From assembly GCA_013215465.1 (NCBI GenBank), contig JABSOW010000010.1, positions 1-64,000 on the forward strand: a DNA stretch of 64,000 nt. The letters are read 5' to 3'. Numbering within the stretch: position 1 is the first letter of the stretch; every line of letters starts with the position of its first letter. Positions 26,994 through 48,585 of the stretch are shown piece after piece. This DNA is from Colwellia sp. (GTDB lineage: Bacteria > Pseudomonadota > Gammaproteobacteria > Enterobacterales > Alteromonadaceae). Below the pieces are notes generated by a model. That model made no database searches and had not been told where the DNA came from. It was given only the letters and a program-made list of their open reading frames with translations. The translations under genes were made by a program, and so were the position numbers.

Positions 26994-28202
26994 TTATGGT
27001 TTAACCTGAAACGAGCCATCGACACTCAATCTATCACTAGCTCTATCGTTTTCCTCATACAACTCGAACGTTCCAGACACAGCATCTAAGCCAAGAAAAT
27101 CGACAAAGCCTGCAGTTATATTACCTTCAACTAGATTATTACCATGGCTCGCGAACGTTATATCAACGTCCAAAAATACATTTTCATCGGTAATATTCAT
27201 ATTGCCACTAAAGGCTGCATTCCACAGATCAGCATCCCTATCATCATTAAACGACAATTGGCCGTTAAAAATACGTCCACTTTCAAAATCGATGGTCATA
27301 CCCGCGGAGAAGTTAGAAAGGCTATAAGTTGATGTTACTGCCGCATTGGCATACTCGATAACACCTTGTTTAGCTGCTACAAGTTCATAAATATTTTCAG
27401 GTTCAAGCGAATTAAGTTCATCGTACCTGACAAACTCAGTAGAATTTTGCTCTAACGCGGTAATAATTAACGCGGTATTTATTTCTAAACGCGTTAACGG
27501 GATATTTCCAATAGCTGGTGTTATGGCATTATCGGTATTTAAAAATTTTGAAATTTCTGTTATCTTTGTACTCATACCCTTGTTGAAAATTTCTGGTGGC
27601 TCAACATAAGAAGTAATAACCCCACTGTTATCGATACTTGCATAGGAAAAACTTTCCCCTTTACCAAGTGATAGCGTTTCACCTGTTTGCCCACCAATAT
27701 TTATCAATACGTCAATAGCGCCATCCCAAACAGCAAACCACACCATGGCATTAATCACTTCAACTTGATAATGCGTACCTCGAATACCAATACTGCCAAC
27801 CGGTGTTTTTAGTTGATACTGACCACTGTCTGCTTTTATTGCCCCCGTGATAGAGCGTAAACCACCTTTAACTAAATCAAGTACCGCCGAATTTTTTTCA
27901 TCACCGCTATTAAATTTATATTGTGAAATAATCAGCTCTGTATTCTCTTTCAAGGCGATAATACTGCCATCAATCATGCGCAATTGCGTTTTACTTGCTG
28001 CGCCTGTCGTTACAATATCGTTGGTAAACACCGTCGAACGTCGTTTTAGTGGGCGCTTTTCTTGATTATCTGTAGATAGTGCCTCGACCTTTCCCGTCGC
28101 GATCATTGTTTTACCTGCCTTTAATTCAGCTAACGAATGTGGCGTATAAAATAAAAATAATAAAGTGCTCAGCACAATTTTAACGTTAGGTGATATATTC
28201 AT
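26994..28202 (-). CDS. Secreted FecR-domain protein
   Basis: The 402-aa product has a signal peptide (to about residue 26) and a FecR-like domain (about 30-150: GKVEAL, DIVTTGAASKTQLRMIDGSIIAL, GGLRSITG and TPVGSIGIRGTHYQVEV). Its C-terminal 230 residues have no recognised domain and look beta-rich. Unlike classical FecR it has no anti-sigma region or sigma factor partner. FecR-domain proteins of this kind are often encoded with TPR/beta-barrel proteins and CHASE2 cyclases, as here. Its ATG overlaps the preceding stop by one base (TGATG), so the pair is coupled. Confidence 0.8.
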   Translation of the reverse strand: MNISPNVKIVLSTLLFLFYTPHSLAELKAGKTMIATGKVEALSTDNQEKRPLKRRSTVFTNDIVTTGAASKTQLRMIDGSIIALKENTELIISQYKFNSGDEKNSAVLDLVKGGLRSITGAIKADSGQYQLKTPVGSIGIRGTHYQVEVINAMVWFAVWDGAIDVLINIGGQTGETLSLGKGESFSYASIDNSGVITSYVEPPEIFNKGMSTKITEISKFLNTDNAITPAIGNIPLTRLEINTALIITALEQNSTEFVRYDELNSLEPENIYELVAAKQGVIEYANAAVTSTYSLSNFSAGMTIDFESGRIFNGQLSFNDDRDADLWNAAFSGNMNITDENVFLDVDITFASHGNNLVEGNITAGFVDFLGLDAVSGTFELYEENDRASDRLSVDGSFQVKP

Positions 28203-29542
28203 CAGAATGCATATTTCCAGGTGAGGTTCATATCAAGTCGATTATATTCAAATATTTTCATTGCTAATAATTGGCTATCGAGATCTTTGTCTTGAAAATT
28301 TAGTTGCAGCTGTATAATTTGGTCGTCAAAACCGCTATACAGTAGTTCGGTTGAGAGTGTGGCTAAAGATGAGTCGTTGTAAACATTAAACAAAGGATTT
28401 GGTTGCGCATATTTTTGTTGTTCATACCTAGCGATGGTACTACCACTAAGATTTCCCGAAATGACATAGCCGATGATGTAGGTAGCGCCAATAGATGTTT
28501 TATTATTATGCTTTAGCCTTTTTTTATTATGGTCTTTATATCCTGTGAGCATAAAGGTATGTTGAAATGTGTGGTAAAAACGATAAAAAGCATTCATTTG
28601 ATAGCGGTTAAAATTCAAATCTTCATAGACAAAATGATCAACCTTGCTGATAAATCCATTCAAGCCAAATTGACTAGTCTTATCAATAGGCTTCTGCCAG
28701 CCAAAAGTGAACGAGTTTTCGGTGCGATATTTTTTCTTTGAAAACCACAGTGGCACTGTACTTAAACCTAGATACCAGGTCGAATAGTCAAGCATTTCAT
28801 GTTGATATGTGACCGAAAAATTTAACATTCGACGGTTATATTCACTGTGTTTAGAATAACGTTTGTCGCGTGCATAAAAGTCAAATAATAATCGTTGATA
28901 TTGACTTAACGGATACTGATAATTGGTATGATATTGCAATGAATAACTACTATCAGCAATCTCTTTCGAGGAATCAAATAATGGGATCAGCGTACCATCA
29001 GGTAAGGTAATGTCGTCTTGGCTGCTACCACTATTAATATTGCTATCAGAACCAATACTAAACGCGATGTCATTAGACCAAGTACGCCTGCTATCAACCA
29101 GTTGTTGGTTTACCCATTTTAACTGGTACTGAACCTTAGTTATTTGCGCTGGTGTTATCGACTTATTGATTGTTGCGCTTACTAACAGTGTTTCCAACTC
29201 AAAAACTGCTGCGGGTAAGTTACCCACTTTTTGATAACTTAATGCTAAGTAATAGCGACCATCAAATGATGAAGGCTCATTGATCAACACCCGTTCAAAT
29301 GCAAAAACGGCTGCTTGATAACGTTCCGCGCCAAACGCGGCTAAGCCAGACAAAAAATCGTAAGTTAACTCACCCGCTAATTCAAATTCTAAAGATTTTG
29401 AATAATCATAGGCCTGAGTAAAGTTTTTTGCTAATAAGTATTCTTTTAGTTGCGTTAAATCCGACTCGTCACTCGCCAATACCGGCGAGTTAAATAAAAG
29501 AGCAATGGCCACAATAGTTATTTTTGTGATTCTTTTAGTCAT
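28202..29542 (-). CDS. Outer-membrane TPR/beta-barrel protein (SLAM/DUF560-like)
   Basis: The 446-aa precursor has a signal peptide ending near VLAS (residue 24), then a TPR-like helical region (about 30-155, with FERVLINEPSSFDGRYYLALSYQKVG). A C-terminal beta-barrel of about 280 residues ends in the aromatic motif WKYAF typical of outer-membrane insertion. The layout matches surface lipoprotein assembly modifiers, though that assignment is by architecture only. It starts a two-gene unit with the FecR-domain protein and lies 111 bases after the cytochrome gene upstream. Confidence 0.7.
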   Translation of the reverse strand: MTKRITKITIVAIALLFNSPVLASDESDLTQLKEYLLAKNFTQAYDYSKSLEFELAGELTYDFLSGLAAFGAERYQAAVFAFERVLINEPSSFDGRYYLALSYQKVGNLPAAVFELETLLVSATINKSITPAQITKVQYQLKWVNQQLVDSRRTWSNDIAFSIGSDSNINSGSSQDDITLPDGTLIPLFDSSKEIADSSYSLQYHTNYQYPLSQYQRLLFDFYARDKRYSKHSEYNRRMLNFSVTYQHEMLDYSTWYLGLSTVPLWFSKKKYRTENSFTFGWQKPIDKTSQFGLNGFISKVDHFVYEDLNFNRYQMNAFYRFYHTFQHTFMLTGYKDHNKKRLKHNNKTSIGATYIIGYVISGNLSGSTIARYEQQKYAQPNPLFNVYNDSSLATLSTELLYSGFDDQIIQLQLNFQDKDLDSQLLAMKIFEYNRLDMNLTWKYAF

Positions 29543-29652: not shown

Positions 29653-30945
29653 TCATTTTTGTAGCGCCATCTTATTATTTATCTCGCGTAATTTTTCAGC
29701 AAATAATAGCGAGTTATATTTTTCATCATGGTTCACTATATCAAACAAGTCAGCTATATCTTGCTGATACCGTTTGCTAATACCAATATAATCAATGAGT
29801 AGGTCTATCGCCATAACGGCTTGTTCTGCCGCAATATAATCAGAAAATTCATCTTTACTGCCAATTGTTAATATTTTAGACAAGATTAACGAAGCAGATA
29901 ACTTTCTTTGCGCGAGTGTTAGCTTGGTTATTGCTTCTTCAATGGTTTTAATATCAGCTAACAGCTTGGTGATCACTGTAGATAATTGTGCTTTATCATG
30001 TAAACTATTACGCATAACGCTTAGATGTTGATGCAATGGTGTCAATGCCTGAGTACTAGCAGCGATAGCAATCAACATTTTAAAATGGCCATCATTTAAG
30101 CGTACCGTCCCGGGTTTGGCGCCCTTGCCTTTAACCTCAGTCCATTTTAAATCAGACATAAGATGATGACAGGCATAACAATCAAATAATGATAATTCAG
30201 GAAACAAGGTATTGGTATTAACAAGTTTATCTTCAAGCGTATTGAGCGTTTGCCTATTGGCGGCAAGTTGTCCATAAATCCACGTGATATAGCTATCGCC
30301 AACCCATTTTTTACGCTTATAATCGGCATCAATCACATAATGTAACGGTTGTAATATGCCAAAGGTATCTAATTCAAATGATAATCTTGGATGCCCTGCT
30401 CCCATAATATCGTGCGTTGCTTGCTTGTCCTTATTACCCAAATGACACGACAAACAAAGTTTAGCGCGCTGCTGTGGTTGGTCGGTTGGATACAAACCAT
30501 GCGCAATATTCGCTTGATGACTTTGCTTGGCATCAGTATGACTACTAATATAATGCTCTGCGCCACCATGACAAGATTCACAGCCAACGCCGTCACTGAT
30601 TTGAAATTTTTTACTTTGATATTCAACAGCAACATTGTCACTATGACAATCCAAACAAACACCCGCGGTAGCCGCGTGATCTAGGCCAAGTTTATCGGCA
30701 ATTTTTTTTGATTGAGCCGACAACAAGGTTTGGTAAGCTTGAGCATGGGCATCTTCACGACTCCAAATAATGTATTCATTTTGCAGTACATTACTGCCTG
30801 TTCGGCTAATTATTGAACCGTGACACATACTGGCCGCACAACTGGCGACGCCCATATGCATTTGTTGGTCATGTTGTGGTAACTCAGCAGCATGAAGGAC
30901 AAACAGAGCAAGCACATTGGTAATGAACAATAAAAATAATCTCAC
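29653..30945 (-). CDS. Periplasmic multihaem cytochrome c, cytochrome c-554-like (five haem motifs)
   Basis: The start is best placed at the GTG at 30945: AGGAG (30953-30957) overlaps the upstream stop and is spaced seven bases from it, and a clean signal peptide follows (cleavage after HAA). A TTG further up would overlap the previous gene. The 430-aa product has four CxxCH motifs (CLDCH, CESCH, CLSCH, CYACH) and one unusual CxxxxCH (CAASMCH, near residue 32). The C-terminal 170 residues are helical and haem-free. It is the last gene of the electron-transfer operon, four bases after the decahaem gene. Role: carrying electrons in the periplasm. Confidence 0.85.
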   Translation of the reverse strand: MRLFLLFITNVLALFVLHAAELPQHDQQMHMGVASCAASMCHGSIISRTGSNVLQNEYIIWSREDAHAQAYQTLLSAQSKKIADKLGLDHAATAGVCLDCHSDNVAVEYQSKKFQISDGVGCESCHGGAEHYISSHTDAKQSHQANIAHGLYPTDQPQQRAKLCLSCHLGNKDKQATHDIMGAGHPRLSFELDTFGILQPLHYVIDADYKRKKWVGDSYITWIYGQLAANRQTLNTLEDKLVNTNTLFPELSLFDCYACHHLMSDLKWTEVKGKGAKPGTVRLNDGHFKMLIAIAASTQALTPLHQHLSVMRNSLHDKAQLSTVITKLLADIKTIEEAITKLTLAQRKLSASLILSKILTIGSKDEFSDYIAAEQAVMAIDLLIDYIGISKRYQQDIADLFDIVNHDEKYNSLLFAEKLREINNKMALQK

Positions 30946-30949
30946 ACTT

Positions 30950-33900
30950 TTACTCCTTATGTTCAACTAAAGGTGCACTGACTTTGTTGATTGATTGTTT
31001 AACCGGGCCAAGTGCTGAACCTGATGCTGATTTAAAGGGGACAACTAAGACTGGTGTGGCAATGCCAAAATGTATGCCCCGGCCAACTGCGTCAATATTA
31101 TCTTCGACAAACCATGGTTGTTGATTTTCATCAAGATATAACCCTTTCATATCCTGTTCGGTTAATGGCCCTGAGCCTAACCGACTAAAGACAGCAATTT
31201 GACCACCGGTTTCATCAACCGCTCTGTCTCTTTCTAACCCTCTCGATAATGATAACGCTTTTGAACTAGTTGGGTACCAAGCAATCATTTCTGGTTTGGG
31301 ATCCGGACTAAAGCCATAGAAACGCGGTTGTGTTGCCGGTGAGGTTAATTGAATAACTTTAAGTCCAGCGTCACCATCCGCAATATATGCATATAATGAG
31401 GCATTGGTTGAAGCAACTATCACATCTTGTGCATCCTTTAATGCACCTTCGGCATTAAACATTTGATAGATTTTCATCGCTTGTGGATTAGTCACATCCA
31501 CTATGGCCAAGCCGTCTTGTCCTGCTGCAACATAAGCAAAGGTTCTAGCAACAAATACCCTATTTGCCTGTTTAAGCGTGATAACGTTATTAGCAACAAC
31601 AAAGGCTTTTTCAGGTGCAGTTATATCAACGGTTTTTAAGCCATCATCGTCAGTAACAAATAAATACCTAAATTGCTGAGCAACTGAATGTCCATTATTT
31701 AACGCTACGGTTGTTAAGTGCTTAGGTTGTAGTGGCTTATCTAAATCAAGCACAACTAAGCCAGCATCGGCAATAATATAAACGTATCGACCACCAACCG
31801 TTAAATGGCGAGCGCCTTGAAGAATATTATCCTTATTCCAGGTCAGTGCTCTGGTTAGAAAATTATTACGCGGCTCACCATCTGCCAAGGTATCAATATT
31901 GGTTAAAATCAGCCCTTCTTGTGCATCCGTGATCAACGCGTAATTATAAATGGGATGGGTCGGTTTTTCTTGGTTAGTGACTCGCATCAAATCACCTTGG
32001 TTACGCTCAGGAGCTACCGGTTGTGTGGTGACTAATGAAACACAGGTTGCATTGGCACTTTTAATGGTGGTGTCTTGGCCTAAGACAGACGCGGGCGCGG
32101 TTATAATACGTTGACTAACACCTTTGTTAGCAATTGAAGCAACATCATAAACAACCATACCGTCGGTACCTGCCGCGGCATATAAATATTCACCGCGTAA
32201 TTGCATACAATTAATTTGACCGGCACTGTGGTTATAGCCAACATCAAGTTCTTTATCGTTGTTAAGGTGTTGTTGATAAAAATCTGGGTAGACATATTTC
32301 TGCAAATAACTACCCTTCACCGCCTGTGGCTCTTCCCATTCAGTCACTTGCACCGCTTCTACCGTTTCACTGCCGCCAACATAAGCATGATAGCCAATAA
32401 AATCGATAAAATCGGTTCCTAGACCTAAGGTTTGAGTGAAGATCGCATTGTTATCACCGTCTTTCGATAAATGACAATCGCTACACACCCTAGTTTCCTC
32501 TTTTCTAACAGTATGAGCAAAATGTGGATTCATCGCTTGAGAACTATAGCCACTGGCTGAAATAGGCGGCTGTTGCACATAGATTTTTTCACGATTTGAG
32601 TTAGTCGATGATAATACTAGCGCAGAGCTTGAGCGGATGGGGGCAATTTTACCGCCATTAATTTTACCTCTTCGCCCTAACATAAAAATTTGGTCTCGAA
32701 CCACTTGTGGATTATAACTGGCGTAATTTCTAGATTCACCACCTTCATAGTGTTTATTTTCGGTTTTCCAATTCGCTTCTATTGGCAAATGACAGCCGCC
32801 ACAACTGGTTGTCCACGATTGATGACATGAATAACATTCCATTTTCTCATTACTGTGTGCTAATTTTTCCGGTGTTACCTCAATACCCCAATGCTGGTTA
32901 GTTGGGTCTTTAGCCATCATTTTCGAGCGCGCTGCTTTGGCGTTATATTCTTTATTGGCCGGGTTAACTACATCTTTTAATAAACTGAGTTTCCACTCCA
33001 AATCAGGCCATAGCAGACTGCGCTGATATAAACCGTCATTTTTCCACTGAAATCTTTTTTGTCCATCAGGATTACGAATTAACGATAAATCAGTTCCTCC
33101 CAGCGGCGCAGCAGGTCCCGATGTTTTTAATGATGGGTACTTGGTTACTGTGCCATGGCAGTCAACACAATCGATTTCTACCGCACCCGCAACTTCACCA
33201 TAAACATGACCATTACCGTGATTGTCTTGTGAATAATGACAATCGACACAATGCATACCAACGTCTAAATGCACTGATGACATATGCACGCTTTTATCAA
33301 ATTTTTTCGGGTCCTTTGGATCTATAATTTCATTTTCTTTATCAAGTAAATTACCCTTTCGATCTTTTTTGAATACGGCTCTAAAATTCCAACCGTGACC
33401 ATGATAATCAGCAAATTGGGTATCGTTCATCTCATCATTTTTACTCCACACAGCACGTAAAAAATCTTGCTCAGACCACAACCCTCGCACGGCTGCACCT
33501 TCAGGATTATTCTTCATGATGTTAAATTTTTCATCATCACTTGGATAGCGCTGTTTTTTAGGAAACATTGCCGGTGCGTCAGCTTCATAATCCCACATGG
33601 TATAACCCAAAAAGGTATTAACAAACATATTCGGCTGATGCATATGACATGACATACATTGTGAGGTGGGGATCGAGCGCGTAAACACATGTTTTAACGG
33701 GTGGCCATCTTCTTTTTTAGTAATGGTTGGATCAACGGTTTGTGTCTGACCACTATTGCCAAACTGGGCATAGGGTCCCGAGTGCCGTGGCTCTCTGTCA
33801 TTCGCATAAACCACATGACATGAACCACAACCAGAGGTTCGAAAATCGCCGGGATTATCATTAGTACCTAAAAACCACATCAAGGGATCATTTAAGCGGG

Positions 33901-34843
33901 TTTTATGGACATTAAGTAATGGCACAGATATACGTGCACCCGTACCTGGTCCGCGGTTAGATTGTTTGATATCGGGCCTACCCGGCTCTTCTATCCGTTG
34001 TAACATACCCAAAGAATTCGGTAATGCTGTTTCTGGGAACTGATTTGAGATATTGCGACCACCACGTTCAAACACTCTAAAAATATCGCCTGGTGCCACA
34101 GTTTCCCATGCAGGCAAAGGATATAAAATAGGTAAAACGCCATGTTGTTTGGTTGCTAATGAAAAATTTTCCAGTGGTGGGCCCGCAATGGCTGTCGGTT
34201 TACCTTCGCGAGTATAAGCCTCTCCTAAGATATAATTTTTAAAGGGCAAAATATTATTAGCATAAGAAGCGGCACCAAATAACATAGCACCTGTCGCCAT
34301 AAGACTACGTTTCGCCGCCTGTACCGTTGATAAATGACAGGCACCGCAAGATTCTTCAGCAACACGTAAATCAGATGGATTGACAAAACGCACATATTCC
34401 GGCGACTCACGATTAAGCAAGGTATAACTAATTTGAGGATTTGCGCTAGCGGGAAAATTCCAATCAGCTGGATAGCTAGGTAAAACATGTGCTTTAGTTA
34501 ACCTGGCTAAATATATCGCATCTGCTTTGTTAGCTTTTAAAGGTTTAACAATGGTGGCATTACCACCATGACAATCGGTGCACCCTAATATAACACCGGG
34601 ACTTTCATGCATAGTAAGCGTATCAGTTTCGGTATGACAACTTAAACAGCCGGTACTTTTCACCAAGGCTTGCTCAGGTGTTTGATACTTTGGTGCCGGA
34701 GGGGTGAAACTATACTTTAGGGTGACTTTATCAGCTATATCCGAGGTAAAAGCGCTGACCGAGATAAAATTTAACAGCACCCACAGACCGATGGCAAAGA
34801 GACAAACTAGCGGTGATTTTTTAATTTTTATCTTACTATTCAT
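30950..34843 (-). CDS. Decahaem cytochrome c with C-terminal LVIVD repeats
   Basis: This 1297-aa exported protein has a signal peptide (cleavage near VSA, residue 31) and ten CxxCH haem motifs between about residues 66 and 790 (CLSCH, CTDCH, CGACH, CGSCH, CMSCH, two CVDCH, CYSCH, CGGCH, CSDCH). From about 875 to 1230 come at least four repeats with the pattern Y-x-Y-x-A-x-G-x-D-G-L-x-V-x-D (for example YVAAGQDGLAIVDV), which form an LVIVD beta-propeller. Propellers of this sort are often extracellular binding surfaces. No lipobox is seen, so surface attachment is not certain. The gene lies seven bases after the porin gene, suggesting a porin-cytochrome pair. Confidence 0.85.
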   Translation of the reverse strand: MNSKIKIKKSPLVCLFAIGLWVLLNFISVSAFTSDIADKVTLKYSFTPPAPKYQTPEQALVKSTGCLSCHTETDTLTMHESPGVILGCTDCHGGNATIVKPLKANKADAIYLARLTKAHVLPSYPADWNFPASANPQISYTLLNRESPEYVRFVNPSDLRVAEESCGACHLSTVQAAKRSLMATGAMLFGAASYANNILPFKNYILGEAYTREGKPTAIAGPPLENFSLATKQHGVLPILYPLPAWETVAPGDIFRVFERGGRNISNQFPETALPNSLGMLQRIEEPGRPDIKQSNRGPGTGARISVPLLNVHKTRLNDPLMWFLGTNDNPGDFRTSGCGSCHVVYANDREPRHSGPYAQFGNSGQTQTVDPTITKKEDGHPLKHVFTRSIPTSQCMSCHMHQPNMFVNTFLGYTMWDYEADAPAMFPKKQRYPSDDEKFNIMKNNPEGAAVRGLWSEQDFLRAVWSKNDEMNDTQFADYHGHGWNFRAVFKKDRKGNLLDKENEIIDPKDPKKFDKSVHMSSVHLDVGMHCVDCHYSQDNHGNGHVYGEVAGAVEIDCVDCHGTVTKYPSLKTSGPAAPLGGTDLSLIRNPDGQKRFQWKNDGLYQRSLLWPDLEWKLSLLKDVVNPANKEYNAKAARSKMMAKDPTNQHWGIEVTPEKLAHSNEKMECYSCHQSWTTSCGGCHLPIEANWKTENKHYEGGESRNYASYNPQVVRDQIFMLGRRGKINGGKIAPIRSSSALVLSSTNSNREKIYVQQPPISASGYSSQAMNPHFAHTVRKEETRVCSDCHLSKDGDNNAIFTQTLGLGTDFIDFIGYHAYVGGSETVEAVQVTEWEEPQAVKGSYLQKYVYPDFYQQHLNNDKELDVGYNHSAGQINCMQLRGEYLYAAAGTDGMVVYDVASIANKGVSQRIITAPASVLGQDTTIKSANATCVSLVTTQPVAPERNQGDLMRVTNQEKPTHPIYNYALITDAQEGLILTNIDTLADGEPRNNFLTRALTWNKDNILQGARHLTVGGRYVYIIADAGLVVLDLDKPLQPKHLTTVALNNGHSVAQQFRYLFVTDDDGLKTVDITAPEKAFVVANNVITLKQANRVFVARTFAYVAAGQDGLAIVDVTNPQAMKIYQMFNAEGALKDAQDVIVASTNASLYAYIADGDAGLKVIQLTSPATQPRFYGFSPDPKPEMIAWYPTSSKALSLSRGLERDRAVDETGGQIAVFSRLGSGPLTEQDMKGLYLDENQQPWFVEDNIDAVGRGIHFGIATPVLVVPFKSASGSALGPVKQSINKVSAPLVEHKE

Positions 34844-34850
34844 AATATTC

Positions 34851-36665
34851 TTAATATGTCAGGATAATGTTAGCCAGAATAGAATATGGCTGCGAATAAT
34901 CGCTACCATATAGCTGATCAAATGCTGAACCAGAAAGGAGAGTTGCCGCCGATAATCTAACCACAATATTTTGTGACTGATATGGTCGCCAAATAAGTGC
35001 AGCAGACAGATCCTGTCCTAAATTTTTAGCTATTGCACCTTGTTGTCTTAAGCTTTCTAAGACACTGGTATCGTCAAACCATAACAGATTTAAATTCATC
35101 GACACGCGCAGCTCTGGCAAAATATCAGCGTCAAAACCAAAGCCAATTAAGCGTAAACCTGGGTTAATAAAGTTTGATTGACCTTGCTCTTTACTTGACC
35201 GTAAAGATGGTAAAATACCATTCCGTCCCGATAAGGCAACACCGCCACCACCAATCAAAGGAATGTTTTGTCGAATAAAAAAACTGGTATCTGCGCCAGC
35301 AAATTGTGGATTTTCAAAAATGGCATCAAAGCCCTTGGCAACGCTATCAAATGGGTCATCATCACCTGAAGCCAACAAAAATGATAATTTAGGACGGAGC
35401 CAGTCGATATCAAACGAAAGTTCTACCGCGAAAAAGTAGGCACTGACTTGGTCTTTAGTATGACGAAATCGAGTATTAGTCTGTTCCCCTATCGCATAAT
35501 AAGCTGAGCCCGTTACATTCAATCGACTGAAATGGCCATCACCACTATAGCCTAAATAAGTGACATCATAATCACGAGAGAAGCGCTCTTCAAACAGTGA
35601 TGCTGGCCGCGCAATAAAGCCATTTTCATCAAATTTAATTTGTCCTTTTTCACGATTGCGATTGTAAGTAACACTCGCCTGCGAGACAAAGCCTAATACT
35701 GGAAAATCTTGCCAATATAAATTGGCGATAAATACATCGTCATTTCTGGGACGTTGAGAAATATCATTTAAACCACTATTAGTATCTTTTTCTAAGCGTT
35801 TAAACCAGGCAATATTATATTGAAAAACATTGTTACTTCGATTGCCAAACAAGCGGATACCTAATTGAGAGTCTTGAAAGAGAAAACCTCTAAAATCTGA
35901 TGAAAAGGGCTGAATACCAACACGTAGACTATCAAAATCAAACCGATTAGAGACATTACGTAAATGCTTATCGACAAAAGCTGCTTGAATACCGAAAAAT
36001 CGACCGGTTCGCTTAGTACCGTCATCGCTACCAATACTGGGATCAATATTCACTAAGCCACGCTCTTCAAAACTCAGCTGATTGAAATTAAAAACTGTGG
36101 TCAGTCTAAATTCATAATCTGGCGGACGAAATACCGTATCACCCTGATAAATGACCTGTTCTACAATAAAACTTTGGCTGAATAGCTTGCCATTCCCTGA
36201 GCCGATGGACTCTAAAGAACCCGCATGAGTGGTGGTGGCGTTACCAACGGGTACCGGGAAATTACGTTGTTCAATAATAGTGTCCGAAATGGCAATTAAG
36301 TTATAAAACCAATCATTGCCCCAAACAGGTAGATCACCTTTTAGCGGGTTGTGTCCGTTATAGGGATCCCATAGCTTAGTTTCAATGCCTATTGCTTCAA
36401 TAATACGCCAGCGATCAGGCACCACAGGTCCTAATAAAATAGTATCATGCCATGGCGTTAAGCTTTTTTCATCGTTACATGGGCTTAATTTATATTCATC
36501 AATGGGGTGACCCGGGCGTTGCCGATTCGCTTTTACCACACCTTCACCACAAATTAAATGTGCTGGCACTATCGCAGTCGGCGCTTCTTTAACATTTTCT
36601 GCCGCTATCGTCATCGAAAGCGACATCATTGCTGCTAGCACGACCACAAAACATTTATATACCAT
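34851..36665 (-). CDS. Outer-membrane beta-barrel porin of the cytochrome operon
   Basis: Translation should begin at the ATG at 36665, which gives a signal peptide (MVYKCF...MTIAAEN) and has GGAAG eight bases ahead; a TTG further up lacks these. The 604-aa product ends in a long series of alternating strands closing with NIILTY, as expected of outer-membrane barrels. It contains no haem motif. Sandwiched between multihaem cytochrome genes, it may be the sheath that lets a cytochrome cross the outer membrane, as MtrB or other porin-cytochrome barrels do. No sequence kinship with MtrB is claimed. Confidence 0.75.
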   Translation of the reverse strand: MVYKCFVVVLAAMMSLSMTIAAENVKEAPTAIVPAHLICGEGVVKANRQRPGHPIDEYKLSPCNDEKSLTPWHDTILLGPVVPDRWRIIEAIGIETKLWDPYNGHNPLKGDLPVWGNDWFYNLIAISDTIIEQRNFPVPVGNATTTHAGSLESIGSGNGKLFSQSFIVEQVIYQGDTVFRPPDYEFRLTTVFNFNQLSFEERGLVNIDPSIGSDDGTKRTGRFFGIQAAFVDKHLRNVSNRFDFDSLRVGIQPFSSDFRGFLFQDSQLGIRLFGNRSNNVFQYNIAWFKRLEKDTNSGLNDISQRPRNDDVFIANLYWQDFPVLGFVSQASVTYNRNREKGQIKFDENGFIARPASLFEERFSRDYDVTYLGYSGDGHFSRLNVTGSAYYAIGEQTNTRFRHTKDQVSAYFFAVELSFDIDWLRPKLSFLLASGDDDPFDSVAKGFDAIFENPQFAGADTSFFIRQNIPLIGGGGVALSGRNGILPSLRSSKEQGQSNFINPGLRLIGFGFDADILPELRVSMNLNLLWFDDTSVLESLRQQGAIAKNLGQDLSAALIWRPYQSQNIVVRLSAATLLSGSAFDQLYGSDYSQPYSILANIILTY

Positions 36666-38802
36666 TACAAACTTCCGTTTCGGTAGTATTGATAAAAGGG
36701 GCTTGTGGACAGTTGACAAAACGTAACCTTATCGATTGATTAGGTATATCAATCTTATCAGCACGTATTAATACCGGGGCATTATTCAAACCACTTGCCA
36801 AGGCTGATCCCGCTTGATGAAGGGCAAGAAATGAAATCATATCATCTTGATCAATACCATCACCCGAGACCCCAATACCACCGATTAGAATATTCCCTCG
36901 ATAAATAGGCACACTGCCTGGAAATATTTGCAGACCATTTGCTAGCCCAGCTATTTTAGCATTATTAGTAAAGGCATCATTTGTTGAAAAACCGGTATTA
37001 CCGGTACAATTAGTATCCACATCCGGCGCGGCGCCAAGTACAAAGGCAACATGCTGGATCAGCGCGTTGTAAATCAAATCAGATTGCAAGCCAACATTGA
37101 ACACGCTCCACTGCCCTTGCGGCTTACTTAATGGCCCAGGTGGACCGGTAATAGGCCCATCGGGGAAAGTGGGTCTGGATAAATTACCACCGGCTCGATC
37201 AGAAAATGCGCTAAACGGTCCATCAGTTTCTAAGGCTTTAGCTACCCCTAAAAACCATTGTAGACTAGCAACATAATCGGCAAATTCAGGCACTGGCGAG
37301 TTTAATAAAGCAATGCCTGCGCTTATGTCAACTGGCTCTGCTAGTGCAGCTAGATATAAGGGTGCTGGTAATGCTCGCAATAAATCGGCCGGTGCATTGG
37401 TTAGTTTACCCGTACCAGAGAAAAAAGCGGCGGTTCTAGCTTTTTGCAGCGAGACATCTGCGCCAAACACTGGCGCATCACGGGTTCTAGCCATCCCGAC
37501 AATAGCGCCATTACTGTCAACTACCGCCACTGAAACTCGGGCTTGAGTGCCATTGGGCTGGCGAATTTGTGCCCGACTTTTATTTGCAATCGCAAGCGCT
37601 TGATTAAGTAGCTCTTGTACTTCTATTTTGGTTAATTGATTACTTACGTCACCATTGGGTTGATCGCTCGCATCACTAGCAGGAAAACGGTTGCTGTTCT
37701 GTGCATCAGCAAAAATGAACGCATCCAAATCTATGCCCTCAGCGTCTTTAAATATGCTTGGATCCGCCGGAATAATACCTGAACCCTGTTGACCAAAGGC
37801 AATGCCGGTTAACACCACACGATTAGGATCACCTGAGCTATTAATATCGCTTTCACCGCCGTCATAATAACCTGGTACAGCAACTAAACTGCCAATAACA
37901 TTATTAATACTGTTAAATTCAACTAACGATTGGCTCAGTAAATCAGTAATAAATGCATCACTAAAGCGCGCCGTTTTACCGGCAATAGTGATCACGTCGG
38001 CTCGTCGAGTGATGGGCGCAGCGAAACCAACCGAACCGGCTAAGGCGATTAACTCATCGTTATCCCGATCAAAACCGCTAATATTTTTATCTAAGCCATA
38101 AATTTTGTCAGCAATCACCCCAATAGCGCCAACAGGTGTACCGAATTTGTATAAAGGAAAACCGCCCGGATCGGCAGACAAACCTAAGGGTGAACGCAGT
38201 GGACCAACACCTGGAGAAGCTAAGGGACTAAAACGTAAGTTAAAATCACTACAAGCAAGCTGACTAAATTGCACGCCAAACAATGGCCCTGAAGGAGCAT
38301 TATTTTCACCGGGATTAAAGTTTTTTTGAATAATTTGGCTGGCGGTGCGGGTGCTAAAGGCATTCCCTTCTGATGAAAGGTAACTGGCGGTGATTGCCTT
38401 TGAAATAGCTACCATAGTATCAGGAATAATATTTACGTTTTCTAAACCGCCGACAACCTTGGCTAACAAGGTACCAGCGGTAGAACTAATAGTGATTAGT
38501 TTTTCAGCATTGTTCATTCTAAACACCGCTAACACATTACCCACTCTATCAGTAACGGCTATAGTGGCGTTAAGTTGCCTTGCTTGTGCTTCCTCAACAG
38601 CTTGACTAATTACTTGTTCAACATCAGCTTTAGTTAAAAATGAAGCTGATGACGCACAAAAGCCAATACAGCCATTAGCGCTGCTATTTTCGCTTTGGCT
38701 TCCATGTACAGCGGTAATTTCTTTCGAATTATCGGTGTCACCGCCACAACCACTTAAGCACAGCAGGTTAAGCCAAAGTAATGAATAAAATTTACTCTTC
38801 AT
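36655..38802 (-). CDS. Lipoprotein with two GlcG/HbpS (DUF336) domains
   Basis: The 715-aa precursor has a lipobox Leu-Ser-Gly-Cys (Cys19). Two related regions begin LTKADVEQVISQAVEEA (about 57) and LTKIEVQELLNQALAIA (about 392) and continue with the GlcG/HbpS pattern VAVxDxxGxxxAxxR. This fold binds haem or cobalamin in some family members (HbpS) and is unassigned in others. Both domains are enlarged by insertions. The start overlaps the previous gene by 11 bases, and its end overlaps the porin start by 11, so it is embedded in the operon. It might store or deliver haem, or act as a redox partner; both are guesses. Confidence 0.75.
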   Translation of the reverse strand: MKSKFYSLLWLNLLCLSGCGGDTDNSKEITAVHGSQSENSSANGCIGFCASSASFLTKADVEQVISQAVEEAQARQLNATIAVTDRVGNVLAVFRMNNAEKLITISSTAGTLLAKVVGGLENVNIIPDTMVAISKAITASYLSSEGNAFSTRTASQIIQKNFNPGENNAPSGPLFGVQFSQLACSDFNLRFSPLASPGVGPLRSPLGLSADPGGFPLYKFGTPVGAIGVIADKIYGLDKNISGFDRDNDELIALAGSVGFAAPITRRADVITIAGKTARFSDAFITDLLSQSLVEFNSINNVIGSLVAVPGYYDGGESDINSSGDPNRVVLTGIAFGQQGSGIIPADPSIFKDAEGIDLDAFIFADAQNSNRFPASDASDQPNGDVSNQLTKIEVQELLNQALAIANKSRAQIRQPNGTQARVSVAVVDSNGAIVGMARTRDAPVFGADVSLQKARTAAFFSGTGKLTNAPADLLRALPAPLYLAALAEPVDISAGIALLNSPVPEFADYVASLQWFLGVAKALETDGPFSAFSDRAGGNLSRPTFPDGPITGPPGPLSKPQGQWSVFNVGLQSDLIYNALIQHVAFVLGAAPDVDTNCTGNTGFSTNDAFTNNAKIAGLANGLQIFPGSVPIYRGNILIGGIGVSGDGIDQDDMISFLALHQAGSALASGLNNAPVLIRADKIDIPNQSIRLRFVNCPQAPFINTTETEVCNGI

Positions 38803-40633
38803 AGTTTTTTGCCTTTATTATCACCTTGCTAAAAGGGGTTACTTTTTTATAACTTGAATTATGACTCAAGTTATAACCAACTAAAGCATGGGTGTTAGTA
38901 TTATGAAAGTCATGGCAATCGATACACGTATTAGGGATTAAATTATGACTTTTTTCACCCCCGTGGCATTGCTGGCAATTATCAATATTCGGCATTAATA
39001 TATCTGAACTGACTTTAGATGACGCGGCTTTATGGCAACTCTTACACTCCCTACTTTGGTGAGCATTGTGAGTGAAATTAGCGAATGGCAACCACTGTTT
39101 GGTTAACCTAACTGGCTGAACTTGCCAGGGTAATTCAGTATCGTCATTTTTAGTGACCACATGACACACTTCACACGATTGCCGTTCAAAGATATCACTA
39201 GCAGCAACGTAAGCTCTACTTTCCGCCCAGACTAACGCATCAGTTCTAATTGTTTGTTTAGTTAAGTTTTTAATTGACGCTATGGTTTGTTCATTTAGTG
39301 AATATTGGAAGTCTTTACGCAATTTCTGCTCTCGCCCTGGCCTTCTTGCTGGTCGAATGGTAAATAAATCACCCGCTTTGACCCTAACATTATCATCTGG
39401 ATCTTGGTTTAAATTTTGATATATATACCTGAAAGCGTAGTATTCTCGCATCATCATCAGCACATCAGCGGGTGAGCCATGGGGCACTACCCTAGTAGGA
39501 TCATCTACATCAAAGGTTAATTGGTGGCAACTTTGACAATTTTTTTCCATCGTGATCGGCTGCATTGCACCGCCATTAACTTCGGATACATGACAGTCAC
39601 TACAAACAAGTTTTATCTCGCCGGTAGTAGATTTTATTCCTTGGGGATCCAGATGAAGCTGATGAGAAAACTTCAAATTTGACTGCTCTGTCAGTTGGCT
39701 ATCTTTTAACGCTAGACGCTTAGCTTGCCAGTCAATTATTTTTTTATCTTTGCTTAGCGCGGTTAATACGCTCACCTTGAATGCCGGATGGGCATGCTCA
39801 AAATCAGTGGCGCTAGCAAATACACTATTATTAGACCGATTTTTTATCGGTTCTCTATGACAATCAACACAGAGCTGTTGCGAATAGCGACTCAGTGTTT
39901 GTTGTGGATTGTGTTCTTTATGGCAACTGGTGCATTGCCTGACTTCGTTAACCGATGTTGATAACTCAATATCATTGATATGAGGTTTAATCGTATTATG
40001 ACAAGACTGACAAGCTTGATTGGTTGTTGGTATAAACGCAGTAGTGTGGCACATAGCACAATCGTTACCGATAAATTTGTGCGCTTTAATTAAATCACCG
40101 GCTAACCACTGGCTATCATCGGGTAATGGACTTTGTCGCAATGCCTCCATCCATAATGGGTTAATAACGCCATAGATAGGTAATAATAAACCCAGTAGTA
40201 ATATCGACAAAAACAATGTCCAACTCCAACTGCGCTTACTCAAGGTTAAATCGCTAAAGCTTAATTCGTATCGTTGTTGCAGTGGCGTTTGTTCAATTAA
40301 GTTAACACTAACGAGTACAACAAAATCATAATTTGACTGTGCCGGTAATAACGAGATTTTATGGCCAGAAATTTCAATCTCTTCGCCTAGTTTTAATGAG
40401 CACTTTTTAACCGCCTGGCTGTCTTTAATAACATATTTACCCGCAGCGGCCACAACTTTACCACCACTTTCTTGTATAAAGATTTTGGCATGGGCTAATG
40501 CGACTTTAGGATCGGCTAACAATATATCTTGATTGGTACCTCGTCCAATGCTTAATACGCTACTATCGAGTACAACTTGCTCAGTAACTTCACCTTGTCC
40601 CTGCTCTTTTACATATCGAATAAGCAACTTCAT
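38792..40633 (-). CDS. FHA domain-transmembrane-decahaem cytochrome c fusion
   Basis: The ATG at 40633 has AAGGA ahead and follows the previous stop by 13 bases. The first 100 residues are an FHA-like domain (SIGRGTNQDILL, then LAHAKI; the usual Ser before the His is Ala). One helix (about 131-151) then anchors the protein, placing ten CxxCH motifs (CAMCH about 190 to CIDCH about 571) in the periplasm. FHA domains bind phosphothreonine, so a cytoplasmic phosphorylation signal may act on an inner-membrane haem wire. I know of no characterised protein with this composition. 613 aa. Confidence 0.8.
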   Translation of the reverse strand: MKLLIRYVKEQGQGEVTEQVVLDSSVLSIGRGTNQDILLADPKVALAHAKIFIQESGGKVVAAAGKYVIKDSQAVKKCSLKLGEEIEISGHKISLLPAQSNYDFVVLVSVNLIEQTPLQQRYELSFSDLTLSKRSWSWTLFLSILLLGLLLPIYGVINPLWMEALRQSPLPDDSQWLAGDLIKAHKFIGNDCAMCHTTAFIPTTNQACQSCHNTIKPHINDIELSTSVNEVRQCTSCHKEHNPQQTLSRYSQQLCVDCHREPIKNRSNNSVFASATDFEHAHPAFKVSVLTALSKDKKIIDWQAKRLALKDSQLTEQSNLKFSHQLHLDPQGIKSTTGEIKLVCSDCHVSEVNGGAMQPITMEKNCQSCHQLTFDVDDPTRVVPHGSPADVLMMMREYYAFRYIYQNLNQDPDDNVRVKAGDLFTIRPARRPGREQKLRKDFQYSLNEQTIASIKNLTKQTIRTDALVWAESRAYVAASDIFERQSCEVCHVVTKNDDTELPWQVQPVRLTKQWLPFANFTHNAHQSRECKSCHKAASSKVSSDILMPNIDNCQQCHGGEKSHNLIPNTCIDCHDFHNTNTHALVGYNLSHNSSYKKVTPFSKVIIKAKNYEE

Positions 40634-40646
40634 TGTAATTTCCTTA

Positions 40647-41510
40647 TTACCTATAGATAAATATTGAGACAATATGGCTAATTAACGCGGCTAGCAAAGC
40701 AAATGAAATAGGAATATGAAGGTATAACCATAACTGTAAGTACGAATTATGTTTAATGTCTTGTCGTAATACTTTTAACGCTCTTTGCCTGCTGCCAAAT
40801 AAATCAATAATTTTCTTTAGTCGAGTTGCTTGTAGTTGTTCTGTCACTCTAGCTAATTCAACCACTAATAAATTTATACAAGTCGCTTGATTTTCATTTG
40901 CTAACACTCTATCGTCAACCACCAAATTAGAGTTATCTTTAACGCTTAATAAGTTGACAAAACCACCTCCAAGCTCGGTCCTTTCAAGTGCACTATTAAT
41001 CATTAAATTGAGCTTTTTGGATAAGTCTTTTGCCAACTTTAAAATTTGACGATCAAAATCTTCAATTGACTGAAAATACTCTTCGCTTGATATAGCCTTA
41101 AGGTTTTTTCTTTTTTTAACCGGTAAATAAACATAAACCCATGCCCCGTAAAAGCCACTAAAAATAGCAAAACACATTAACACATAAGCTAAAGTGTGAA
41201 TGTTGACGCCAAATTGAAAACCAGTATGCAAGGTAGCTAAAACTAACAGTGCACTCCCTAAATAAATATGGGCGGATAACCAACCTTTAACGGTACCAAA
41301 GGTTGAAAAATAATCTCTTTTTCTGCGACCAAAGTACATTAAAAAAACAATCAATAAAGCGGAGACCGTGCCAATAGTATAGCCAAACCACGTACCGCCA
41401 TTTTTAGGCTGACCGGGCTCGTGCCAAAAATAAGCAACTGAAAAAATAACACTTACCCAAAGCGCTATCTTCAAATAGTAATAATTTTGATAAGATAAAA
41501 AATTATCCAT
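40647..41510 (-). CDS. Inner-membrane cytochrome b-like protein
   Basis: This 287-aa protein has about five membrane helices: two near the N-terminus, two more with LSAHIYLGSALLVLATLHTGF (about 80-100) and the following helix, and one at the C-terminus (LYLHIPISFALLAALISHIVSIF). The histidine pairs in the third and last helices, about 13 residues apart, fit bis-His b-type haem ligands. The soluble part between them (about 135-255) is helical. Between an FAD/Fe-S protein and a haem wire, it is well placed to pass electrons across the inner membrane or to the quinone pool. Starts with ATG one base after the preceding stop. Confidence 0.7.
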   Translation of the reverse strand: MDNFLSYQNYYYLKIALWVSVIFSVAYFWHEPGQPKNGGTWFGYTIGTVSALLIVFLMYFGRRKRDYFSTFGTVKGWLSAHIYLGSALLVLATLHTGFQFGVNIHTLAYVLMCFAIFSGFYGAWVYVYLPVKKRKNLKAISSEEYFQSIEDFDRQILKLAKDLSKKLNLMINSALERTELGGGFVNLLSVKDNSNLVVDDRVLANENQATCINLLVVELARVTEQLQATRLKKIIDLFGSRQRALKVLRQDIKHNSYLQLWLYLHIPISFALLAALISHIVSIFIYR

Positions 41511-41511
41511 G

Positions 41512-43896
41512 TTATATGTTCACCACTTTAATGAAGTTTTCAGGGCTTACTCGTTTGGCGGCACCCGTAGGACATGCACGTACACAAGCAGCACCGCCAT
41601 CAATGTCTTTACACATGTCGCACTTAACCGCTTTTTTGATATTGTCCCCTTGGCTAACTTTATTGTTTCCTGATTTTTTACCGGCATTAAAAAACATCCA
41701 CTGCCAAAAGTTACTATTTTTTTCTTTAGGATAAGCCATTTGAATAACGCCATAAGGACAATTTCGTTCGCAATTGCCACAGCCAATACAACTATCATTA
41801 ATATAGACTTCACCACCTAAACCACCACGATGGATAGCATCTGGAGGGCAGTCTTTCATGCAACTTGGATCTTCACAATGTCGACACGAAGTGGGCACAT
41901 GAACATGGGCAAAGGTAGGTCCCGCTTTACGATTTAATCGGGAAGTGCCGCCATGTGTTGCTGCACATGCGGTTTCACAATTATCACAACCAACGCAAGT
42001 ATCTTCATTAATCAATAAAACGTCGGTTGCCTCACCTAGGCCTTGTTGCATCAAGAATGATAAAATATCACCGGTATCGGTGTCATATTCAAGTTGGGTA
42101 TTTTCTAAATGACGCTGTTGAACTTCAAGCTCCATTGTGGCGCGTAAAGTAGGTGACTTTGCCAGTAACTCATTAAACGATTCACTATCAATTGAAATAG
42201 TTTCTGTTTTAACTGTCGCTGTTATGGTGGCCGAGCGAACGGTGTTACCCAACAAGGCCATTTCTCCAATAACATTATTGGCGGCAACATAGGTCATCGG
42301 GATATTCTTATCACCAACCCTTTTGGAAACAGTAACTGAACCACTTCTGATCACATGTAAACAGTTCGCTTCATCGCCTTCGTTAAACAACACTTCATTA
42401 GCTGAGTATTGATGCAACTTTGCTTTTTTTACAATAGGCTGTAGTTGTTCAATCGCGACATTAGGTGCAAATTTCCCTTGGATGGTACGAAGAATAAAGG
42501 TTTCATCTAAGACCCGTTTTACGGCTTCAACAGAATTGATTAATTTAATCATAGTACGGCGTGGTGTTTCGATAACAATACAATCATCACCAGCAAGCAC
42601 TGTGGCCGAGCGGCGGCGTCCCGATATCAAGCTCATTTCACCAAAAAAATTGCCTTGACCACTTGTTATCGAGCGAGCACCAATGTCAATAGCAACGTTA
42701 CCTTGCAATATGGTGTAAAAAGTATTGCTGTAATCATTTTTTTTGAATATTTGTGTCTTAGCTGAAAAAATATGTACGGTACTATCTAGCATTAACTCTC
42801 TAAATACCAGCATTGACAATGGGGTAAAGACCGGTATTTTCGCTTGCATCATCGCTAAAATTTCATCAACCTCCTGGTCAAAAGGTAATTTTTCAAGCTT
42901 TGCTGCTAATAACGGATGGTCTGCCGGTTTTATATCATTACCAAGGATGTATTCGACCACTTCATAACCTTGGTTCATCGCTTGTTTTATCAGCGGGTAA
43001 CCACCTAACGCACCAATAACATACATGCCCGGCACATTAGATTCATATTGACTAGATAACACCGGAATAGCGTTAGCGTCACTATTAGGAAATTCAATAC
43101 CAAAAGACTCTACCAAGGCTCGTGGTGGTATTGCTCCTAGGCGAGCAATAATTCGATCAACGGCAACGGTAACTTCACCAGATGCTGTTTTGAATATAAA
43201 AGCGCCCGGTTTATCTTGCTGCGGCGTTAGAACAATACGATATGGATTAGTATTATAAAAACACTCGACCTCACCTTTATCGATCGCTGCGGTAATCAAA
43301 TTTAAATTACCTTGTTTCGCTCTGGCGAACTCATCACGCCGGTTAATAAGGTAAACTTTATTGTTTTTGGCTAATACCACCGAATTTTCAATTGCCGCAT
43401 CACCCGCGCCAACCACCACGATCGATTCATTTTTGTGATCATCAGGATTGTCGAGGCTGTACTGAACAAAATCTACATTGTCACCATCTACAGCAAGTTT
43501 TCTTGGATTACCTTGTACACCGATGCCTAAAATAACAAATTCAGTTTTTATCACATCACCATTAACCAGTGTAATGCTAAAATCTCCCTGTTGCCCTTTA
43601 ATGCTAACAACCGCGGCATTATATTGAATATTAGTGCCATTCTCGCTAATACTGCGTTGCCACTGTTCTAGAATGATTTCTCTTTTTCCTGCTTCAAATG
43701 CAACGGGGCTACGTAAAGGTAAAATGGCTGGCTCAGCCATAACATGCTTACCTTTTTGGTATTTTTGAATGGTGTTCGCTATTTTGGGACTGGACTCTAA
43801 TAAAAGATGAGAAATATCAAGTTCTGCGGCATGCGCAGCCGCACTAATTCCGCCAGGCCCGGCACCAATTACGACAATTTTATATTGTTGAGTCAA
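41512..43896 (-). CDS. FAD oxidoreductase with two cyclic-nucleotide-binding domains and a polyferredoxin domain
   Basis: In order over 794 aa: a thioredoxin-reductase-like FAD/NAD(P) module (GAGPGGISAA at about 10, VVVGAGDAAIENS near 160), two cyclic-nucleotide-binding domains (about 345-460 and 480-595), and an iron-sulfur module (from about 632) with four cysteine clusters like DmsB/HybA subunits (CVGCDNCETAC, CRHCEDPSCMKDC, CIGCGNCERNC, CDMC...CVRAC). Both phosphate-binding cassettes (GEMSLISGRRRSAT, GEMALLGNTVRSAT) keep the key Glu and Arg. It lacks a signal, so it is cytoplasmic. Start is a TTG with AAGG nine bases ahead; no other start precedes the FAD motif. It heads the operon and would feed electrons under cyclic-nucleotide control. 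Confidence 0.85.
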   Translation of the reverse strand: MTQQYKIVVIGAGPGGISAAAHAAELDISHLLLESSPKIANTIQKYQKGKHVMAEPAILPLRSPVAFEAGKREIILEQWQRSISENGTNIQYNAAVVSIKGQQGDFSITLVNGDVIKTEFVILGIGVQGNPRKLAVDGDNVDFVQYSLDNPDDHKNESIVVVGAGDAAIENSVVLAKNNKVYLINRRDEFARAKQGNLNLITAAIDKGEVECFYNTNPYRIVLTPQQDKPGAFIFKTASGEVTVAVDRIIARLGAIPPRALVESFGIEFPNSDANAIPVLSSQYESNVPGMYVIGALGGYPLIKQAMNQGYEVVEYILGNDIKPADHPLLAAKLEKLPFDQEVDEILAMMQAKIPVFTPLSMLVFRELMLDSTVHIFSAKTQIFKKNDYSNTFYTILQGNVAIDIGARSITSGQGNFFGEMSLISGRRRSATVLAGDDCIVIETPRRTMIKLINSVEAVKRVLDETFILRTIQGKFAPNVAIEQLQPIVKKAKLHQYSANEVLFNEGDEANCLHVIRSGSVTVSKRVGDKNIPMTYVAANNVIGEMALLGNTVRSATITATVKTETISIDSESFNELLAKSPTLRATMELEVQQRHLENTQLEYDTDTGDILSFLMQQGLGEATDVLLINEDTCVGCDNCETACAATHGGTSRLNRKAGPTFAHVHVPTSCRHCEDPSCMKDCPPDAIHRGGLGGEVYINDSCIGCGNCERNCPYGVIQMAYPKEKNSNFWQWMFFNAGKKSGNNKVSQGDNIKKAVKCDMCKDIDGGAACVRACPTGAAKRVSPENFIKVVNI

Positions 43897-48466: not shown

Positions 48467-48585
48467 CACAATTGAGTTCTCTGCTACTTTGCTCAGTATA
48501 ACGTTCTTCAACATTTTCTTATACTTAGGTTTATCTAATAATACAGCCAACTCATCCCATACTCCATCATTCGAAGGGATAACCA

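Follow-up and report, generated by a model that had tools for sequence, protein, structure and literature searches.

The window, a 64,000-nucleotide stretch of Colwellia sp. DNA, holds seven minus-strand open reading frames (ORFs), the outermost of which end at 29653 and 43896. Adjacent ORFs are 1 to 7 bp apart or overlap by 11 to 65 bp; starts were set at the first possible codon, making the overlap lengths upper bounds. This confirms the tight packing described in an earlier reading made from the sequence alone. From the upstream end, the genes code for FADCNB, a protein with an FAD/NAD(P) domain, two cyclic-nucleotide-binding (CNB) domains and a polyferredoxin (41512 to 43896; Pfam, NCBIfam and conserved columns); MemB, an inner-membrane di-haem b-type protein (40647 to 41510; conserved His residues and a published motif); FHAcyt, with an FHA-like domain, one transmembrane helix and ten CXXCH motifs (38792 to 40672; Pfam and motif counts); HbpS2, a lipoprotein with GlcG/HbpS-like domains (36655 to 38802; Pfam and an N-terminal LSGC); an AlgE/OprD-like outer-membrane porin of about 18 strands (34851 to 36719; structure model); the LVIVD protein, in which an exported, ExtM-like decahaem domain is fused to a C-terminal beta-propeller (30950 to 34843; Pfam, NCBIfam and hhalign); and an exported five-haem cytochrome of the c554 family with one CX4CH and four CXXCH motifs (29653 to 30966; Pfam and motif counts). 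The three cytochromes bring together 25 haem motifs, ten in the LVIVD protein, ten in FHAcyt and five in the c554 protein, as had been counted before.

The proposed seven-gene system proved real and conserved, but its limit was drawn too narrowly, as the block extends to 22083. The part of the window that aligns to G612, a genome of one other species of the genus, is a co-inherited block of 21.8 kb on the minus strand (22083 to 43927) that matches in pieces of 69.7 to 78.8% nucleotide identity with short gaps. It comprises twelve adjoining genes, the seven-gene core included, and occurs in G612 in the same order with one extra gene and with unlike flanks. Outside 22083 to 43927, no alignment to the 60 kb of G612 examined was found (dc-megablast, E 1e-10), and no sharp GC-content island was seen. 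Beyond the core, all on the minus strand, lie genes for a TPR-containing protein, the syntenic partner of FecR (28202 to 29542; TPR matches below cut-offs), a FecR-domain protein (26994 to 28202; Pfam and synteny), an MBL-fold hydrolase resembling RNase Z and phosphodiesterases (26004 to 26828; below NCBIfam cut-offs), a CHASE2 protein with a class III nucleotidyl cyclase domain (23690 to 25909; CHASE2 E 2.4e-59, Guanylate_cyc E 4.1e-21) and an MscS-type channel with a C-terminal CNB domain (22082 to 23608; domain matches and alignment to G612).

Distribution of the system

A search for co-occurrence in other genomes found all seven genes in 39 of the 53 loci with enough flank; they make up a conserved operon. 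Since the gene order is kept in dozens of genomes, the arrangement is not due to chance. Carriers, many of them little studied, span the alpha-, beta- and gammaproteobacteria, with at least 593 matching stretches (not deduplicated genomes) in a one-genome-per-species collection. Our locus set is the best 80 of these and is skewed to close relatives; three near-identical loci (L057, L058 and L088) were each counted in the operon-order counts, and L058 and L088 were left out of the neighbour-gene comparison. Within the stretches fetched, the c554 gene is absent from 12/53 loci, and HbpS2 and the inner half from 2/60 each, while L126, L127, L135 and L136 have the inner half without an LVIVD gene. 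Among near relatives, the system was found in 2 of the 61 genomes searched, the window's own counted in. Identity to the window proteins is 58 to 63% for LVIVD (12 rows), 31 to 37% for FHAcyt, 37 to 45% for MemB and 38 to 45% for c554. The near-full-length LVIVD gene is labelled hypothetical protein in 12 of 13 plasmid records. One carrier, L051, is a biocathode MAG according to its record title.

Cofactor-binding proteins and the porin

The domains first read in FADCNB were recovered by Pfam as Pyr_redox, two cNMP_binding and Fer4. Its FAD/NAD(P) domain is TrxR/YpdA-like, and no CXXC occurs within the first 600 residues of the protein; TrxR-type ferredoxin-NADP reductases likewise lack this motif. 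Virtually all of the 57 homologues keep the two dinucleotide-binding glycine motifs, and the 16 cluster Cys residues of the polyferredoxin, corresponding to four [4Fe-4S] sites, are invariant in them. This region also matches Fer4_11 (PF13247; E 4.5e-10). Both CNB domains retain the phosphate-binding Arg (57/57), and in the second a Gln replaces Glu in 14/57. MemB had been taken for a bis-His membrane protein; Pfam returned only a weak b561 match (E 0.0036), but the ligand His residues are invariant. H81, H95, H105, H265 and H279 are present in 56/56 homologues, including the four haem-b ligands, and the motif series W-x3-H-x13-H / SGxxG / W-x3-H-x13-H is found in the window and in 54/56. In two genomes of one genus (G341 and G455), FADCNB and MemB form a single ORF of 1118 to 1123 aa, with the complete membrane motif in one of the two; the fusion may represent one event. 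Because the [4Fe-4S] sites and haem-b His residues are invariant and the two proteins can be fused, the predicted transfer of electrons from cytoplasm to periplasm is well supported.

FHAcyt has the ten CXXCH motifs first reported; its FHA match lies just under the cut-off (20.4 versus 20.7 bits). The transmembrane helix spans approximately residues 148 to 175, and the FHA-like domain is assigned to the cytoplasm. Conservation of the FHA columns is uneven (Gly 56/56, Arg 35/56, His 37/56, Ser three positions before the His 5/56), one of the nine relatives aligned (L024) lacks the region altogether, and relatives carry ten haem motifs, or nine in a few (L080, L091, L093 and L101). For HbpS2, described as a double lipoprotein, Pfam supports HbpS-like sequence in three stretches and the LSGC is present at the N terminus. 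A crude lipobox pattern, run on the N-terminal 50 residues of ORFs left unedited, fits 39/63 HbpS2 homologues. The five-haem protein is a cytochrome c554 by Pfam, as proposed, and its haem pattern is identical in 58/58 homologues. Its description as surface-type was not upheld: the lipobox pattern fits only 6/58, and the N terminus is hydrophobic and signal-peptide-like.

The decahaem-LVIVD assignment was borne out by Pfam matches to LVIVD and multihaem families and by ten CXXCH motifs, which are invariant in 12/12 aligned rows together with many residues besides. The LVIVD protein averages 130 residues for each haem, where the other two cytochromes have 63 and 87. Its high conservation and invariant non-haem residues suit an enzyme. 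By hhalign, the haem domain and ExtM-like cytochromes are homologues (99.9%, E 3.3e-34). Membership of the NCBIfam ExtM family itself was rejected, the match (E 5.5e-21) reaching 74.5 bits against a cut-off of 800. The same crude lipobox pattern occurs in 1/80 LVIVD proteins. In the structure model, the haem domain has low confidence, most blocks scoring below 70, and a structure search with it returned mainly beta-propellers, matched to the C-terminal part. The LVIVD protein may be an envelope reductase, although the literature consulted establishes no reaction for ExtM itself.

As for the porin, the barrel stands in the structure model, which has about 18 strands and resembles AlgE in structure searches, but no Pfam match was obtained at E 0.01. 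MtrB was absent from the best 50 structure matches, which by itself excludes nothing. Neither the LVIVD nor the porin profile matched a PDB sequence at the E thresholds applied (0.01 and 0.1). The porin gene is present in 60/60 loci with 8 kb upstream and immediately precedes the LVIVD gene in 53/53 listed gene orders.

Relation to described electron conduits

The system shares with MtrCAB, MtoAB and PioAB a porin gene beside a decahaem gene, and differs from them in barrel type and cytochrome families. That it is separate from MtrCAB was supported: the window's genome has no TIGR03509 (MtrB/PioB) match, and the window porin none to MtrB in NCBIfam at E 0.01. MtrB was above cut-off in 11 of 47 carrier genomes, a hand-chosen sample made up of the window's genome, those of 41 of the 80 loci and five from a class search. 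Against the MtrA/DmsE model (TIGR03508, cut-off 192.2 bits), FHAcyt and c554 scored 19.6 and 18.7 bits, and the LVIVD protein was absent from the matches. An outer-membrane wire of the MtrCAB kind that ends at a surface cytochrome was not borne out, given the AlgE-like barrel of about 18 strands and the 130 residues per haem of the LVIVD protein.

The system had also been called undescribed. We found no published description of this architecture in the open-access PMC literature, but the motif set of its inner-membrane protein has been published for PCC3 and PCC4. In that work (He et al. 2017, PMC5566968), the PCC3 and PCC4 inner-membrane proteins carry two W-x3-H-x13-H motifs and SGxxG and are suggested to face quinone, the cytochromes of PCC4 contain 4, 5 and 10 haem sites, PCC3 surface cytochromes have a median of 34 haems at 22 to 39 residues per haem, and both systems are modelled as inward electron flow in iron-oxidizing bacteria. 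PCC4 shares with the present system the inner-membrane motif protein, an Fe-S gene (PF13247, subgroup II) that lies upstream of the one for this protein (FADCNB here), and a porin with three exported multihaem cytochromes; it differs in its haem numbers, which are 5, 10 and 10 here. PCC3 shares the motif and the porin and multihaem genes, and differs in having tens of haems, as against 5 to 10 at 63 to 130 residues per haem. Five PCC4-like loci (L128, L129, L133, L134 and L143) encode CNB-Fe-S proteins without the FAD part and gave no HbpS2 or LVIVD match at E 1e-3; their assignment to PCC4 is our own reading. By sequence, the inner half resembles the PCC3/PCC4 system proposed once before, and the comparison places the PCC3/PCC4 inner-membrane protein in a wider, modular family. 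Some of the published clusters may be the present system.

The Geobacter ext cluster (ExtM/ExtI) has the homologous multihaem domain and also includes a porin, a cytochrome with five haems and a lipoprotein that is not a cytochrome. It differs in that the seven genes here include no Rieske/cytochrome b pair or rhodanese, a beta-propeller is added, and the window porin has no match to the ExtI model. ExtM belongs to a selenite/tellurite operon, and the LVIVD protein falls short of the 800 bits of its family. In Geobacter, the extHIJKL genes beside extM are also described as supporting metal-oxide reduction, which leaves room for a conduit that uses a small porin.

Signalling genes and the direction of electron flow

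CHASE2, PP2C, double-FHA and FecR genes surround the system. In the same hand-chosen set of 47 genomes, a distance of 15 kb or less from the LVIVD gene was seen for CHASE2 in 9/47 (expectation 0.59), for a class III cyclase in at least 11/47 (1.73) and for PP2C in 13/47 (0.80); the expectations assume that genomes are independent and even, and distances are same-contig values taken by eye from match tables. In 36/47 genomes, no cyclase lay within 15 kb among the matches listed. The signalling genes differ among lineages more than the redox genes do. Of the regulatory domains said to be built into the electron-carrying proteins, the CNB domains stand (Arg 57/57 in both) and the FHA domain is weaker (Arg 35/56). 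The block is perhaps under cyclic-nucleotide control.

These observations support one co-conserved trans-envelope redox system. Gene conservation, cofactor ligands, the FADCNB-MemB fusion and the co-located cyclase can be read in the sequences themselves; electron direction, substrate, porin role and gating are what we infer. Our preferred reading, tentative and a little short of probable, is a cNMP-regulated oxidoreductase chain from NAD(P)H to an envelope reductase. NAD(P)H would reduce the FAD domain of FADCNB, and electrons would pass from the flavin through four [4Fe-4S] clusters to the two b haems of MemB, then cross the inner membrane to reach FHAcyt, the FHA-anchored decahaem protein, and go on to the ExtM-like decahaem/beta-propeller protein, with the five-haem c554 as a likely carrier. 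The LVIVD protein would reduce a small acceptor that enters, or whose product leaves, through the porin, and the HbpS lipoprotein would bind substrate, product or haem. A cNMP made by the block's CHASE2 cyclase would bind the two CNB domains and set the flow. Counting against this chain are the metal-oxide reduction that extHIJKL also support, the possibility that MemB faces quinone rather than FADCNB, the PCC4-like relatives without an FAD domain, the low-confidence model of the LVIVD haem domain, and the lack of a listed nearby cyclase in 36/47 genomes together with the Glu-to-Gln change in CNB2 (14/57).

Electrons might instead run outward to extracellular solids, as in MtrCAB or ext, with the LVIVD protein at or in the porin passing them to minerals or cells. 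The constant porin (60/60 loci, 53/53 orders next to the LVIVD gene) and the biocathode origin given in the L051 record title speak for such a conduit. Against it are the barrel, AlgE-like with about 18 strands and not of the MtrB sheath type, the crude lipobox pattern in only 1/80 LVIVD proteins and their 130 residues per haem. Haliea, Duganella, Steroidobacter and Sphingobium, all named carriers, are aerobes, which also argues against it; we regard this outward route as unlikely. Most of the named carriers are not known to oxidise metals, which weighs against a chain running inward, where oxidation of Fe(II), Mn(II) or another external donor would deliver electrons under CNB control to the quinone pool or NAD(P)+. 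That direction is the one modelled for PCC3/PCC4 with the same inner-membrane motif (He et al. 2017, PMC5566968), and PCC4-like loci with an Fe-S protein and no FAD domain do exist. Here, however, the Fe-S protein bears an NAD(P)H-type FAD domain and, in G341 and G455, is joined to MemB in a single ORF, and we judge inward flow quite unlikely. It is more improbable still that the system is a redox sensor or repair module whose electrons maintain the reduced state of a protein, haem or metal centre of the envelope while FecR, CHASE2, FHA and PP2C signal its state. The nearby CHASE2, PP2C, double-FHA and FecR genes and the HbpS-like family within the operon would fit such a role; yet 25 haems and a dedicated porin would be costly for a sensor, and the signalling genes are less constant between lineages than the redox genes.

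The NAD(P)H-fed chain can be taken a step further, on doubtful ground. The block might be a transferable, self-contained module in which cNMP made by the CHASE2 cyclase directly gates electron export, switching on NAD(P)H oxidation to supply a new ExtM/beta-propeller reductase that lies behind a solute porin. It is likewise conceivable, though rather doubtful, that the cyclase would sense the envelope, with the CNB domains placed between the flavin and the iron-sulphur clusters. The system is widespread yet hardly annotated, and many of its carriers are not known to respire metals. It connects genes for cyclic-nucleotide and phosphoprotein signalling with redox chemistry in the envelope in a way that can be tested on one purified protein, FADCNB. 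If the gating module is real, a second messenger would here control a trans-envelope electron-transfer chain at the post-translational level.

Seven genes and their cofactor sites

Seven ORFs are present on the minus strand at 29653-43896, and their domains proved to be those named in the sequence-only reading. With the later results added, they encode an FAD/NAD(P) protein with two CNB domains and a polyferredoxin part (FADCNB), an inner-membrane di-haem b protein (MemB), an FHA-TM-decahaem protein (FHAcyt), a GlcG/HbpS-like lipoprotein (HbpS2), an AlgE-like porin, an ExtM-related decahaem protein with a beta-propeller (the LVIVD protein) and a five-haem cytochrome (c554). The haem motif total of 25 also held (10 + 10 + 5). 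The fifth motif of c554 is CX4CH, kept in 58 of 58 homologues.

The FAD/NAD(P) domain of FADCNB has no CXXC, and the 16 cluster Cys of the protein are all invariant. The four ligand His of MemB, likewise invariant, belong to a pair of W-x3-H-x13-H motifs separated by SGxxG, a motif set that He et al. 2017 (PMC5566968) describe for the corresponding membrane proteins of two porin-cytochrome cluster types, PCC3 and PCC4. A single ORF of 1118-1123 aa encodes FADCNB together with MemB in two genomes that belong to the same genus (locus L126, 3052-6423; L127, 6850-10206). With the invariant Cys and His, the common motif set and the fusion, the passage of electrons between Fe-S clusters on the cytoplasmic side and haem b in the membrane is the firmest step of the predicted chain.

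The phosphate-binding Arg of both CNB domains is found in 57/57 FADCNB homologues, and the Glu is retained in 56/57 for CNB1 and 40/57 for CNB2. The FHA domain of FHAcyt is less well conserved than the CNB domains.

Occurrence, gene order and known relatives

In an even draw of the class, the LVIVD protein is encoded in 11 of 274 genomes (window's own counted), from ten families, with E = 0 and at least about 60% identity. Scanning 84,980 species genomes with this protein gave at least 594 stretches, including at least 593 relatives, of which the 80 best were used for locus analyses. Among these 80, 60 extend 8 kb or more upstream of the LVIVD gene: the porin is present in all 60, FADCNB, MemB and FHAcyt in 58, and HbpS2 in 58. 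With 3 kb downstream required as well (53 loci), c554 is present in 41 and the full set of seven in 39, and the gene order of the window is matched in 30. FADCNB is last rather than first in 7/53, all seven betaproteobacteria by record title, and in Sphingobium herbicidovorans the two halves of the system converge from opposite strands. Since the seven genes recur together across loci, a lack of co-occurrence elsewhere, which the earlier reading had named as counting against it, can be set aside.

Other genes were seen at some loci. On a Sphingobium plasmid (L121, 4512-12665), the outer half has two neighbours, a secretion gene of the ShlB/FhaC type and a protein of 2092 aa with no Pfam hit; in genome G155 (L030, 485-5522), a second CNB-Fe-S/inner-membrane/decahaem cluster adjoins the system on the other strand. 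L105 is titled as a Bordetella parapertussis MAG, a name that, from the title alone, looks doubtful for an environmental bin. In several lineages, cytochrome c maturation genes lie near the system as a CcmI-like cluster (L078, L080, L097, L101, L103, L108) and a CcmA-like cluster (L106, L108, L116, L118), one member of each BLAST cluster being identified; at L135, CcmF adjoins FADCNB.

Full-text searches of open-access papers brought up no description of this architecture. The nearest described system is PCC4, compared by its text description in excerpts of PMC5566968; the comparison also took in excerpts on ExtI/ExtM (PMC5877670, PMC11976967), the Geobacter ext clusters (PMC6148476), MHCscan (PMC11475568) and Gallionellaceae (PMC10734462). 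MemB had matches in 18 of 299 genomes of the phylum (window's own counted), and all 17 others were fetched with flanks. Some of them have the seven-gene system or its inner half. Others are PCC4-like loci, with an Fe-S protein that is without the FAD part (L128, L129, L133, L134, L143), or, at L130 and L131, PCC3-like loci with 21-27-haem genes. We class the seven-gene system as a new form within the PCC3/PCC4 kind, as that kind is described in the excerpted text.

Gammaproteobacteria also hold a family of ExtM-related 11-12-haem cytochromes (L034-L038, L040). The L034 member scores 202 bits against the ExtM cut-off of 800, and a TPR gene follows its gene.

Signalling neighbours and a larger shared block

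In a chosen set of 47 carrier genomes, signalling genes lie no more than 15 kb from the LVIVD gene more often than expected if genomes are treated as independent and even: PP2C in 13 (0.80 expected), class III cyclase in at least 11 (1.73) and CHASE2 in 9 (0.59). One PP2C cluster and one FHA-protein cluster are each represented at 19 of the 80 loci (best 80 of at least 593, two near-duplicates dropped). Domains were scanned in three PP2C members (L072, L021, L048) and four FHA members (L021, L022, L048, L051); three of the latter have two FHA stretches, and the remaining one is cut by a contig end. The system in S. herbicidovorans has as neighbours a CHASE2 cyclase and a phosphodiesterase that resembles SpdA/CpdA but scores below the cut-offs.

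Among 37 genus members searched (window's own genome counted), G612 is the only other carrier. It aligns with window positions 22083-43927 at 70-79% nucleotide identity; the rest of the window has no alignment in the 60 kb examined from G612. The stretch adds to the seven genes a CNB-MscS channel, a CHASE2 cyclase, an MBL hydrolase, FecR and TPR, and in G612 the MBL and FecR genes are separated by an extra gene, whose product is a cadherin/DUF5122 protein of 1352 aa. Thalassotalea ND16A (L045) has c554-TPR-FecR-MBL-CHASE2 in the same order as the window. Beyond the block, outside the aligning stretch, the window encodes a multihaem cytochrome of 767 aa that has c554/NrfH-like and TPR parts (46283-48586, minus strand).

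The co-inherited unit is larger than the seven genes. Its rarity in the genus and its differing flanks suggest that the block may have moved by transfer as a whole, or may have been lost repeatedly.
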